A DNA stretch of 64,000 nt from Parasphingopyxis lamellibrachiae. GTDB taxonomy: Bacteria; Pseudomonadota; Alphaproteobacteria; Sphingomonadales; Sphingomonadaceae. The notes under the pieces were generated by a model that did not search any database, was not told where the DNA came from, and saw nothing but the letters and a program-made list of their open reading frames with translations. A program made the position numbers and the translations under genes. The stretch spans positions 682,001 to 746,000 of the forward strand of contig NZ_QRDP01000004.1 in assembly GCF_003385775.1 (NCBI RefSeq), read 5' to 3'. Below are positions 34,794 to 37,851 of the stretch, piece by piece (within the stretch, counting starts at the first letter, position 1; each line of letters opens with the position of its first letter).

Positions 34794-35810
34794 CTATTTG
34801 CCTACTTTCCAGGTCTGTCCATGCTCGATCAGCGCCTGGAGGTCGTCCGACTTGCCTTCCGAGGCTGCCGCATTCTGCTCCATCACCGCGCCATCGAAAG
34901 TCGGGCGAGGATCGTCGTAGATCACGCCCAGCGCCATCGGATAGTCTCCGAACGGCATTTCGACGAGCATATTGGCAAGCGCGCGGTTGGTCTGGTCGTG
35001 ACGCAGCACACCGGCGGCTTCCCAGTCGCCGTCGGCCACATCGACTACCCGGGCGCCGAACAGCGCGGGATCCATCGCAATGCCCTTGGTGCCATTGGCG
35101 AAAAGCAGCGGTTCGCCATGCTCTACCCAAAGCTGCGTATCGGGCGCTGTCTTCTTGTCCGTAAAGTCCGAGAACACATCTTCATTATAGACGATACAGT
35201 TTTGAAATATTTCGACAAAAGCTGTGCCTTCATGGGCGTATGCCGCCTTGAACGCGTCCGTCAGCTTCTTGTTGACATCGATGCCGCGCGCAACGAAACG
35301 CGCGCCGGATCCAAGCGCGAACGCACAGGGATTTACCGGGCGGTCGACCGAGCCGAATGGCGTGGAGGGACTGCGCGTGCCGGGCCGTGATGTCGGCGAA
35401 TATTGGCCCTTGGTCAGCCCGTAAATCTCATTGTTGAACAGCAGCACCTGGCAATCGAGGTTGCGGCGCAACAGATGGAGCATATGGTTGCCGCCGATCG
35501 ACAGGCCGTCGCCATCGCCGGTCACCAGCCAGACATCCAGCTCGGGGTTGGCCAGCTTGACGCCAGTCGCCACGGTCGGCGCACGTCCATGGATCGTGTG
35601 GAACCCGTATGTTTCCATATAATAGGGAAAGCGCGAGGAGCAGCCGATGCCGGAAACGAACACGGTATTGGCCGGGTCTGCGCCAAGCTGCGGCATGGTC
35701 CGCTGTACGGCTTTCAGGATGGCATAGTCGCCGCAACCGGGGCACCAGCGCACTTCCTGATCGGTTTCCCAGTCCTTGAGCGTCGTTGTGACGGGGGTCA
35801 TGTCGTTCAT
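34794..35810 (-). CDS. korB: 2-oxoacid:ferredoxin oxidoreductase, beta subunit
   Basis: TPP- and Fe-S-binding subunit that, with KorA, oxidises 2-oxoglutarate or a similar 2-oxoacid to the acyl-CoA, reducing ferredoxin. The cluster cysteines are Cys23 and Cys26 in RWCPGCGDYA, one in SGIGCSSRF and one in FQNCIVYNED. The TPP motif includes VTGDGDGLSIGGNH. Length 338. It begins 10 bases after the stop of a 27-residue membrane peptide; its ribosome site (GAGGG) includes that stop codon. The exact 2-oxoacid is inferred by family. Confidence 0.93.
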   Translation of the reverse strand: MNDMTPVTTTLKDWETDQEVRWCPGCGDYAILKAVQRTMPQLGADPANTVFVSGIGCSSRFPYYMETYGFHTIHGRAPTVATGVKLANPELDVWLVTGDGDGLSIGGNHMLHLLRRNLDCQVLLFNNEIYGLTKGQYSPTSRPGTRSPSTPFGSVDRPVNPCAFALGSGARFVARGIDVNKKLTDAFKAAYAHEGTAFVEIFQNCIVYNEDVFSDFTDKKTAPDTQLWVEHGEPLLFANGTKGIAMDPALFGARVVDVADGDWEAAGVLRHDQTNRALANMLVEMPFGDYPMALGVIYDDPRPTFDGAVMEQNAAASEGKSDDLQALIEHGQTWKVGK

Positions 35811-35820
35811 CGGATTTCCC

Positions 35821-35904
35821 TCAGCTCCACAGCATGTAAATTACGGCGAGGATCACAATCAGCATCCCGACCAGAGGCAATACGCTTTTCGGCTTGTCAT
35901 CCAT
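35821..35904 (-). CDS. 27-residue single-span membrane peptide between korA and korB
   Basis: A short reading frame that standard gene callers would miss. Its ATG (35904-35902) overlaps the end of korA by 8 bases, and its TGA (35823-35821) forms part of the korB ribosome site GAGGG. The product is hydrophilic for residues 1-7 (MDDKPKS) and hydrophobic for about 8-26 (VLPLVGMLIVILAVIYMLW), a clear transmembrane helix with N-terminal charges. The tight coupling on both sides suggests it is translated with KorA and KorB and may anchor or regulate the complex. No homolog search was possible. Confidence 0.7.
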   Translation of the reverse strand: MDDKPKSVLPLVGMLIVILAVIYMLWS

Positions 35905-37771
35905 CGAGTTGCGCCTCGATTGCGGCCTCGATTTCGGCAATCCGGAACGGCTGCCCCGAAACCTTGTTCAGCGGCCTTGCATCGACCAGATACTGATCGC
36001 GCAACACAGTTTTCAGCTGCCCCTTGTTCATTTCGGGCACCAGTATCTTGTCAAAGCTTTTCAGCAGCTCGCCAAGATTGCGCGGCAAGGGCCAGATGTT
36101 CCTCAGATGAATCTGCGCGACGCTCCGCCCCTTGGCCCGCGCCCGTGTCACGGCTTGCTGGATCGGGCCATAGGTCGAGCCCCAACCGACGACCGCCAGC
36201 GTTTCGCCCGCTTCGCCCAGCTCGACTGCCTGTTCGGGAACATCGTCCGCGACATTCAGAACCTTCTGCGCGCGCAGGTCTGTCATTTCCTGGTGGTTGC
36301 TCGCCGAGTAATCGATATTGCCGCTGCCCGATCCTTTTTCGATCCCGCCAATGCGGTGCATGAGGCCGGGCGTACCGGGTTTCACCCATGGCCGCGCAAG
36401 CTTTTCATCACGCTGGTACGGGTTGAAATGGCCGCCTTTTTCCGGCGCTTCGTCATGGTAAGAAACGGGGAATGGTTCGAAAGAGGAAACGTCCGGCATT
36501 TTCCATGGCTCAGCCGCATTGGCTATATAGCCATCGGTGAGCAGCATCACCGGAGTCATGAAGCGGGTAGCAATCCGAACCGCTTCGATCGCACATTCAA
36601 ATGCATCGGACGGCGAGCGGACGGCGATAACCGGCATCGGCGCATCGCCATTGCGGCCATAAACTGCCTGATAGAGATCGGATTGTTCGGTTTTGGTCGG
36701 CAGGCCGGTCGAAGGTCCGCCGCGCTGTGAGTTCACAATCACCAGCGGCAGTTCGGTCATGATCGCCAGTCCCAGTGCTTCGCCTTTGAGCGCGATACCC
36801 GGGCCCGAAGAGGATGTTACGCCGAGCGATCCAGCATAGCTGGCGCCGATCGCCGCACCGATGGCTGCGATTTCATCCTCGGCCTGGAAGGTGGTGACGC
36901 CAAATTGCTTGAGCCGGGACAGATGGTGAAGGATCGCGGAAGCCGGAGTGATCGGATAGCCGCCGAAAAACATCGGCAGGCCCGCCAGCTTGGCCCCGGC
37001 AACCAGACCCAAGGAAATCGCCTCGGCACCGGTAACCGTGCGGTACAATCCCGGTTCGGCCGGAGCGGCGTCGACATGGCGCGGCTGGAATGCATAGCCA
37101 AGTTCGGCCGTTTCGCCATAAGCATGGCCGGCATTGAGCGCTGCGATATTGGCTTCGGCAATTTCGGGCTTCTTAGCGAATTTGGCGTTGAGCCAGTCAA
37201 CAATGGGTTGGCGATCTCGGTCGAACATCCAGAGCGCAAGACCCAGCGTCCACATATTCTTGGATCGCAGCGCTTCCTTGTTGCCCAACCCGAACGGCTT
37301 GACCGATTCCAGGGTCATTTCGGACATGTCGAGCGACAGTAATTGCCATTTCGCCAGCGATCCGTCTTCCAGTGGATTTTCTTCGTAGCCCGCCTTGGAA
37401 AGGTTGCGAGCGGAAAAGGCGCCGCTATCGGCAATAATGAGGCCGCCTTCACGCAAATCATCGACATTGGTTTTCAGCGCTGCCGGGTTCATGGCCACCA
37501 GCACATCGGGCGCATCGCCCGCCGTCCGAATGGCATGGCTGCCAAAGTGGATCTGGAATGCGGAGACGCCAAATAGCGTACCCTGCGGCGCGCGGATTTC
37601 GGCCGGGAAATCCGGGAATGTCGCAAGATCGTTGCCCGCCAGGGCCGTGGACAGGGTAAACTGCCCGCCGGTTAACTGCATCCCGTCTCCGCTGTCGCCC
37701 GCAAAGCGGACAACCACTGAAGCTGCATCTTCGGGTGCCTTGTGTTTCTTCGTTTCTGCCGCGCTGGCCAT
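35897..37771 (-). CDS. korA: 2-oxoacid:ferredoxin oxidoreductase, alpha subunit (gamma-alpha fusion)
   Basis: Catalytic partner of KorB. The N-terminal gamma-type domain (about residues 18-200: VVRFAGDSGDGMQLTGGQF) is fused to the alpha pyrimidine-binding domain, with FFGGYPITPASAILHHLS near residue 255 and VTSSSGPGIALKGEALGLA. The C-terminal domain carries VVGWGSTYGPIQQAV. Length 624 fits the two-subunit KorAB type. I start at ATG 37771; a GTG directly precedes it. The stop overlaps the start of the small membrane peptide. KorAB enzymes in aerobes can replace or supplement 2-oxoglutarate dehydrogenase. Confidence 0.93.
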   Translation of the reverse strand: MASAAETKKHKAPEDAASVVVRFAGDSGDGMQLTGGQFTLSTALAGNDLATFPDFPAEIRAPQGTLFGVSAFQIHFGSHAIRTAGDAPDVLVAMNPAALKTNVDDLREGGLIIADSGAFSARNLSKAGYEENPLEDGSLAKWQLLSLDMSEMTLESVKPFGLGNKEALRSKNMWTLGLALWMFDRDRQPIVDWLNAKFAKKPEIAEANIAALNAGHAYGETAELGYAFQPRHVDAAPAEPGLYRTVTGAEAISLGLVAGAKLAGLPMFFGGYPITPASAILHHLSRLKQFGVTTFQAEDEIAAIGAAIGASYAGSLGVTSSSGPGIALKGEALGLAIMTELPLVIVNSQRGGPSTGLPTKTEQSDLYQAVYGRNGDAPMPVIAVRSPSDAFECAIEAVRIATRFMTPVMLLTDGYIANAAEPWKMPDVSSFEPFPVSYHDEAPEKGGHFNPYQRDEKLARPWVKPGTPGLMHRIGGIEKGSGSGNIDYSASNHQEMTDLRAQKVLNVADDVPEQAVELGEAGETLAVVGWGSTYGPIQQAVTRARAKGRSVAQIHLRNIWPLPRNLGELLKSFDKILVPEMNKGQLKTVLRDQYLVDARPLNKVSGQPFRIAEIEAAIEAQLDG

Positions 37772-37851
37772 CACTTCACTCGCATTGTTCCTGTTTGCCC
37801 CTCCTATGCACAGCTCACCGCCGGAACAAAACAGAAAATATGACAGGTGCG

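Follow-up and report, generated by a model that had tools for sequence, protein, structure and literature searches.

A predicted membrane microprotein gene between korA and korB is conserved across genera of Sphingomonadaceae

CydAB is an integral membrane enzyme, whereas KorAB is a soluble enzyme. CydX, a 37-residue helix encoded with its redox enzyme, is a required subunit whose sequence is only loosely constrained, according to the portions of PMC4325964 and PMC6005532 drawn on here. As described in the same portions, CydX and the CydY and CydZ proteins of cytochrome bd oxidase operons resemble the micropeptide described below in being short (the latter has fewer than 50 residues), in having one hydrophobic helix and in holding a place in a redox-enzyme operon, which for the micropeptide is a conserved one. 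Both groups also have variable sequences with few conserved residues, both were noticed late, and different small proteins occur in sister operons. For the KOR of M. tuberculosis, the electron acceptor was not found and the contact with redox pools is unclear, and the authors suggested, from hydrophobic stretches in KorA itself, that the enzyme associates with the membrane (PMC2773412, in the passages cited here). Unlike the locus reported here, neither those passages nor the chain names of PDB 6n2n mention a small membrane subunit. YohP of E. coli, which has 27 amino acids and one transmembrane helix and whose insertion by the signal recognition particle is post-translational, is like the micropeptide in length and in its single helix, and the cited sections of PMC7549839 mention no link to KorAB. 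The CydX precedent and the membrane suggestion for M. tuberculosis KOR make it reasonable to consider a membrane anchor for KorAB, yet neither tests this idea.

The window, which is the whole stretch of DNA analysed, comprises 64,000 nucleotides of Parasphingopyxis lamellibrachiae (contig NZ_QRDP01000004.1, positions 682,001 to 746,000) and contains the following features.

35821 to 35904, minus strand: micropeptide gene, 27 aa, predicted single transmembrane helix (open reading frame read directly; frame conserved and under purifying selection)
35897 to 37774, minus strand: korA, 2-oxoacid:acceptor oxidoreductase subunit alpha, 625 aa (TIGR03710, PDB 6n2n_A)
34794 to 35810, minus strand: korB, subunit beta, 338 aa (TIGR02177, PDB 6n2n_B)
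35897 to 35904, minus strand: 8-base overlap of the korA stop and the micropeptide start, ATGGATGA (from the sequence)
35818 to 35822, minus strand: GAGGG, putative Shine-Dalgarno-like site of korB, overlapping the micropeptide TGA (by eye)
35914 to 35917, minus strand: GAGG, putative Shine-Dalgarno-like site of the micropeptide, within korA (by eye)

Direct reading of the minus strand confirmed the frame that the original prediction had placed at 35821-35904, which gives the product MDDKPKSVLPLVGMLIVILAVIYMLWS from 27 codons followed by TGA, and also the claimed overlap of its ATG with the korA stop by 8 bases. The 19-residue hydrophobic stretch that had been described is present as V8-W26 and contains one proline, whereas the head had been credited with seven charged residues and its first seven residues hold four (D, D, K, K). 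The putative GAGG lies 9 nt 5' of the micropeptide ATG, and the GAGGG, likewise picked by eye, lies 7 nt from the korB ATG; the end of the micropeptide gene thus reads TGAGGG, which is likely the ribosome site of korB. KorA exceeds the cut-off of TIGR03710 (E 1.1e-196; 654.8 bits, cut-off 482.75), while KorB falls 11 bits below that of TIGR02177 (E 2.1e-74; 250.6 bits, cut-off 261.9). In PDB, KorA and KorB both match 6n2n best (chain A for KorA, E 6.8e-81; chain B for KorB, E 4.9e-62). Judged by these matches, which leave the substrate (2-oxoglutarate or other) unfixed, korA and korB are ordinary OFOR relatives.

The frame is under purifying selection. Among nine sequences from the window's genus (g1; 72 nt, first codon dropped), pN/pS is 0.21 in frame, whereas the two other frames give 0.92 and 2.50; pairwise differences at the three codon positions number 172, 62 and 350. 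Among 16 peptides of genus g77, pN/pS is 0.54 in frame versus 0.92 and 1.41 in the other frames. None of 500 column shuffles gave a value as low in either genus, counts that are not probabilities because the sequences are related by descent. Pairwise dN/dS within two g1 sets ranges from 0 to 0.26, with one pair saturated, and some distant g77 pairs have values near or over 1 (L230-L245, 1.09), which marks either a limit of the test or loose constraint. Since the frame recurs at the korA-korB junction in 41 genomes and has a low pN/pS in the window's genus, it goes beyond chance. Taken together, these sequence comparisons indicate that 35821-35904 is a real gene and the founding case of a new microprotein family. 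A conserved frame with synonymous-site bias at the korA-korB junctions of relatives, which the original prediction had proposed as its check, was found (41 genomes; pN/pS 0.21), and both features support its view of an overlooked, translationally coupled micro-gene.

The gene is restricted in distribution. An even draw of 199 genomes of the family contained korB in 156, and 149 junctions were retrieved from 148 of these; 141 junctions were parsed by motifs and 8 were not. The distance from the korA stop to the WCPGCG motif of korB is at most 90 nt in 98 of the 141 parsed junctions, which leaves no room for a gene, and the micropeptide is present in at least 12 of the 156 korB-bearing genomes (G000, G074, G142, G195, G051, G128, G087, G151, G186, G077, G145 and G197). 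Its absence from most korB-bearing genomes of the family means that KorAB works without it elsewhere. A profile built from nine junction peptides (A2) was used for a six-frame search of 397 whole genomes of the family, and at E < 1e-4 it found nine further genomes; in eight of them the match lies between the two kor genes, and in G371, the ninth, it follows korA at a contig end. Matches with E from 1e-4 to 0.01 were mixed, some lying in the junction (G266, G349, G353 and G369) and others elsewhere (G014, G069 and G170). The matches outside the junction start at E 0.001 and look like chance; the one in G014 sits inside a 591-codon frame. With a wider profile (A3) searched against 296 genomes of the order, all 24 genomes with E < 1e-3 had the match in the korA-korB junction. 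Outside the family, the lowest E values were at chance level, both in the order search (0.0045; 296 genomes) and in a class search (0.0185; 289 genomes), the genomes being taken irrespective of korAB content.

The total is 41 carrier genomes in six genera of one family (g1, 9; g52, 2; g54, 6; g77, 20; g87, 3; g89, 1), and there is a weaker candidate at L203 (E 1.6e-4). Among the named loci of the survey are Sphingomonas, Novosphingobium, Sphingopyxis, Croceicoccus and Erythrobacter, which makes the family Sphingomonadaceae sensu lato. The micropeptide lies between korA and korB in 40 of the 41 carriers, G371 having only korA before its contig ends. Nine of the ten genomes of the window's genus carry it. 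The korA-korB gap of the tenth (G351) has no such frame; this assembly is fragmented into about 500 contigs, and its korB does not group with the genus in the korB tree. That tree (FastTree, midpoint root) has 142 rows that were chosen partly for carrying the micropeptide, and on it presence of the gene requires at least 6 changes compared to a mean of 35 for shuffled labels, with the well-supported branches alone forcing 3 changes. Carriers occur on both sides of the midpoint root, and their peptides are alike across it (g89, DDKPKNVLPLIAGLIVV; window, DDKPKSVLPLVGMLIVI), which makes a single old origin with several losses the simpler reading of the tree, with transfer or repeated gain as alternatives.

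The peptides were aligned as 38 members, which are the 41 genomes minus two identical copies and minus L008, whose last residue differs from that of L006. Each member has 24-36 residues and one hydrophobic stretch, and 36 of the 38 have a proline at the anchor column of the alignment, which is preceded by 6-9 residues in 30 members and by 12-16 in the other eight. The net charge of the head is +1 in 26 members, +2 in one, 0 in five and -1 in six. The eight most constant columns (0, 1, 4, 5, 8, 11, 12 and 15) make up one helix face, within which columns 1-5-8-12-15 are spaced 4-3-4-3. Of 2000 shuffles, 24 were as periodic at 100 degrees, a periodicity that is partly built in because the alignment anchor favours columns 0, 1 and 4, but not 5, 8, 11, 12 and 15. 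This pattern suggests that the conserved face would pack against another helix instead of serving as a plain lipid anchor.

No convincing match to the micropeptide emerged from Pfam, NCBIfam, PHROGs or PDB. The best Pfam matches were those of one member to Phage_holin_10 (E 0.05) and of another to Sarcolamban (E 0.36), and library matches at E 0.02-0.4 were set aside as chance. Homology to CydX finds no support in Pfam, where nine members left the CydX family YbgT_YccB unmatched at E up to 10, a range in which the HMMER filters drop most matches above about 0.1. Among the open-access literature matches listed, titles and abstract starts held no work on a small membrane subunit of KorAB, and the words oxidoreductase, ferredoxin and Sphingo are all absent from the main text of PMC10903887. 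The gene adds to a central-metabolism operon a conserved micro-gene that is absent from the searched libraries.

Possible redox partners were compared in 32 genomes, of which 20 have the micropeptide and 12 lack it (G005, with an unparsed junction, counts among the 12 on the profile search only). OGDH E1 (PF16870) and NuoF (PF10589) were found in all 32 genomes and RnfC_N (PF13375) in none; carriers and non-carriers are thus alike in all three, and no membrane partner is pointed to. Since OGDH E1 is present throughout, KorAB is an extra route in these 32 genomes. The neighbourhood of the locus was compared in 17 genomes with the micropeptide and 3 without it. In many of both, korB is followed by ydjM-like, photolyase and cfa genes (named from sequence), and no recurring redox gene was seen beside korAB among the identified neighbours, which are a minority. 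The micropeptide is kept where the genes downstream of korB differ (G238, G388 and G349). Among the KorB rows (40 carrier and 102 other), no indel or residue of KorA or KorB was seen to track the micropeptide clearly, and the single-residue differences follow clade make-up. As a separate observation, KorA has roughly 25 additional C-terminal residues, with an end near QLPSP, in many non-carriers (for example L014, L018 and L024) and hardly ever in carriers, a pattern that probably reflects clade make-up.

Other small genes also occur at the korA-korB junction. ORFs with 3-4 hydrophobic segments are found at L102, L159, L179, L223, L224, L299, L301 and L320, and small ORFs with 1-4 such segments were seen in the gap at these loci and at L107, L181, L219, L317 and L329 (second ORF); they are often coupled to korA and/or korB, and except for L329 their genomes lack the micropeptide. 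Soluble ORFs in this gap include an isochorismatase (L199), a DUF6678 protein (L170, with L182 alike by eye) and those of L015, L206 and L333. TrpB and TrpA are subunits of a soluble enzyme, and their junction was used as a control with 30 loci, of which 29 were parsed; the korB counterpart was L001-L030. An ORF of at least 60 aa is inserted in 8 of the 29 trpB-trpA junctions and is membrane-like in 5 of these, while the korB set has the micropeptide in 8 of 30 and a soluble ORF in one more (L015); the two sets differ in genomes because each consists of the 30 best matches of a different query. Small ORFs in the trpB-trpA gap were seen at L343, L347, L350, L352, L358, L355 and L360, several with a 4-base overlap. 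Since trpB-trpA junctions also hold small membrane ORFs, genes in coupled positions do not necessarily act in one complex, and recurrent membrane inserts were dropped as convergent support for a KorAB anchor. Judged by these sequences, junctions in Sphingomonadaceae operons seem to collect small genes. What sets the micropeptide apart from the other junction inserts is its conservation across genera; the trp inserts were compared only with each other, and only those of L355 and L360 match.

Several explanations can be weighed against these results. That the frame is an accident of sequence and no gene at all is scarcely credible: it is short and has no match to an annotated family, but its reading frame, its place and its synonymous bias are conserved. 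It is very unlikely to encode a small hydrophobic stress or toxin-like peptide, which would fit its size and hydrophobicity, similar to those of bacterial membrane peptides such as YohP (as described in part of PMC7549839), since it is embedded in and coupled to a metabolic operon and has as best Pfam matches only the two given above. Hardly more probable is a device for translational coupling, or for setting the ratio of KorA to KorB, in which translating the frame matters and the product does not. Many members overlap the korA stop by 8, 4 or 1 bases and end at the start of korB or close to it, as such a device would, but purifying selection acts on the amino acids, and the device would be unneeded at 75 of the 149 junctions (141 parsed, 8 not), where korB can start 4 bases before the korA end. 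The peptide is also kept where it is separated from its neighbours. It starts 64-193 nt past the korA stop, behind repeat-like or other sequence, and is intact at L123, L128, L130, L137 and L236 (genomes G388, G349, G297, G238 and G197). Its stop lies far upstream of korB at L003, L129 and L232, with the peptide retained, and a longer stretch follows an intact micropeptide in G266 and G077; in G195 (L003) the intact gene is separated from korB by 363 nt. The survival of the micropeptide with extra sequence on either side indicates that it is more than a coupling device or spacer, and the ratio-setting role offered by the original prediction is unlikely in view of the conserved amino acids and of the junctions at which the gene stays whole despite added sequence between it and korA or korB.

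The explanation that we prefer, tentatively and somewhat short of calling it probable, is that the single-pass membrane microprotein belongs to the korAB operon as an accessory subunit and holds KorAB, or the site of electron hand-over, at the membrane. Coupled translation would yield the micropeptide at levels close to those of KorA and KorB, and on insertion the N-terminus, which is short and mostly positive, would remain inside; its Pro-Leu...Met-Leu...Val...Leu face would pack against another helix, either its own copy or a membrane partner, and KorAB, or the site where KorAB passes its electrons, might then be held at the membrane in a CydX-like manner. Linkage to korA-korB without exception among the strong matches, even with differing downstream genes, favours a role with KorAB. 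Against an anchor stand the short head, since 6-9 residues before the conserved proline in 30 of 38 members leave little to hold a soluble complex, the rarity of the gene among korB-bearing genomes, the trpB-trpA control, and the lack of a KorAB feature seen to track the peptide clearly, whereas CydX tracks the Q-loop of CydA (PMC4325964 and PMC6005532, in the portions cited). About as likely as an anchor is a small membrane protein with a role of its own, for instance in regulating a different membrane complex, which settled in a tolerant operon junction and is only co-expressed with KorAB. The korA-korB junction accepts other inserts (hydrophobic ORFs, isochorismatase, DUF6678), as does trpB-trpA, and the conserved face of the helix suggests a partner within the membrane; on the other hand, the micropeptide has kept its place between the two genes on either side of the korB tree, and all strong matches (A2, E < 1e-4; A3, E < 1e-3) are at korA(-korB). 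If the micropeptide does not bind KorAB, it shows that conserved membrane microproteins with other functions can reside in tight enzyme operons of Sphingomonadaceae, which warns against guilt by association. If, as in the preferred explanation, it binds KorAB, it would provide a direct handle on how KOR passes electrons on, a question left open for M. tuberculosis in the cited passages of PMC2773412. The more specific proposal, a tether that is the dedicated membrane microsubunit of an anaerobic-type 2-oxoacid:ferredoxin oxidoreductase in bacteria that also possess the ordinary 2-oxoglutarate dehydrogenase, so that 2-oxoacid electrons enter the respiratory chain directly, is rather doubtful; if true, it would be the first such tether known from the literature and library searches made here.

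Two minor observations concern the sequences around these junctions. The 363 nt between the micropeptide and korB in G195 (L003) look like a dispersed repeat. TrpA gave no match in G186 and G129 and a match of only about E 1e-43 to 1e-46 in G077, G145, G197 and G053; these weak-TrpA genomes belong to g77 and g54, and most of the family reaches 1e-76 or better.
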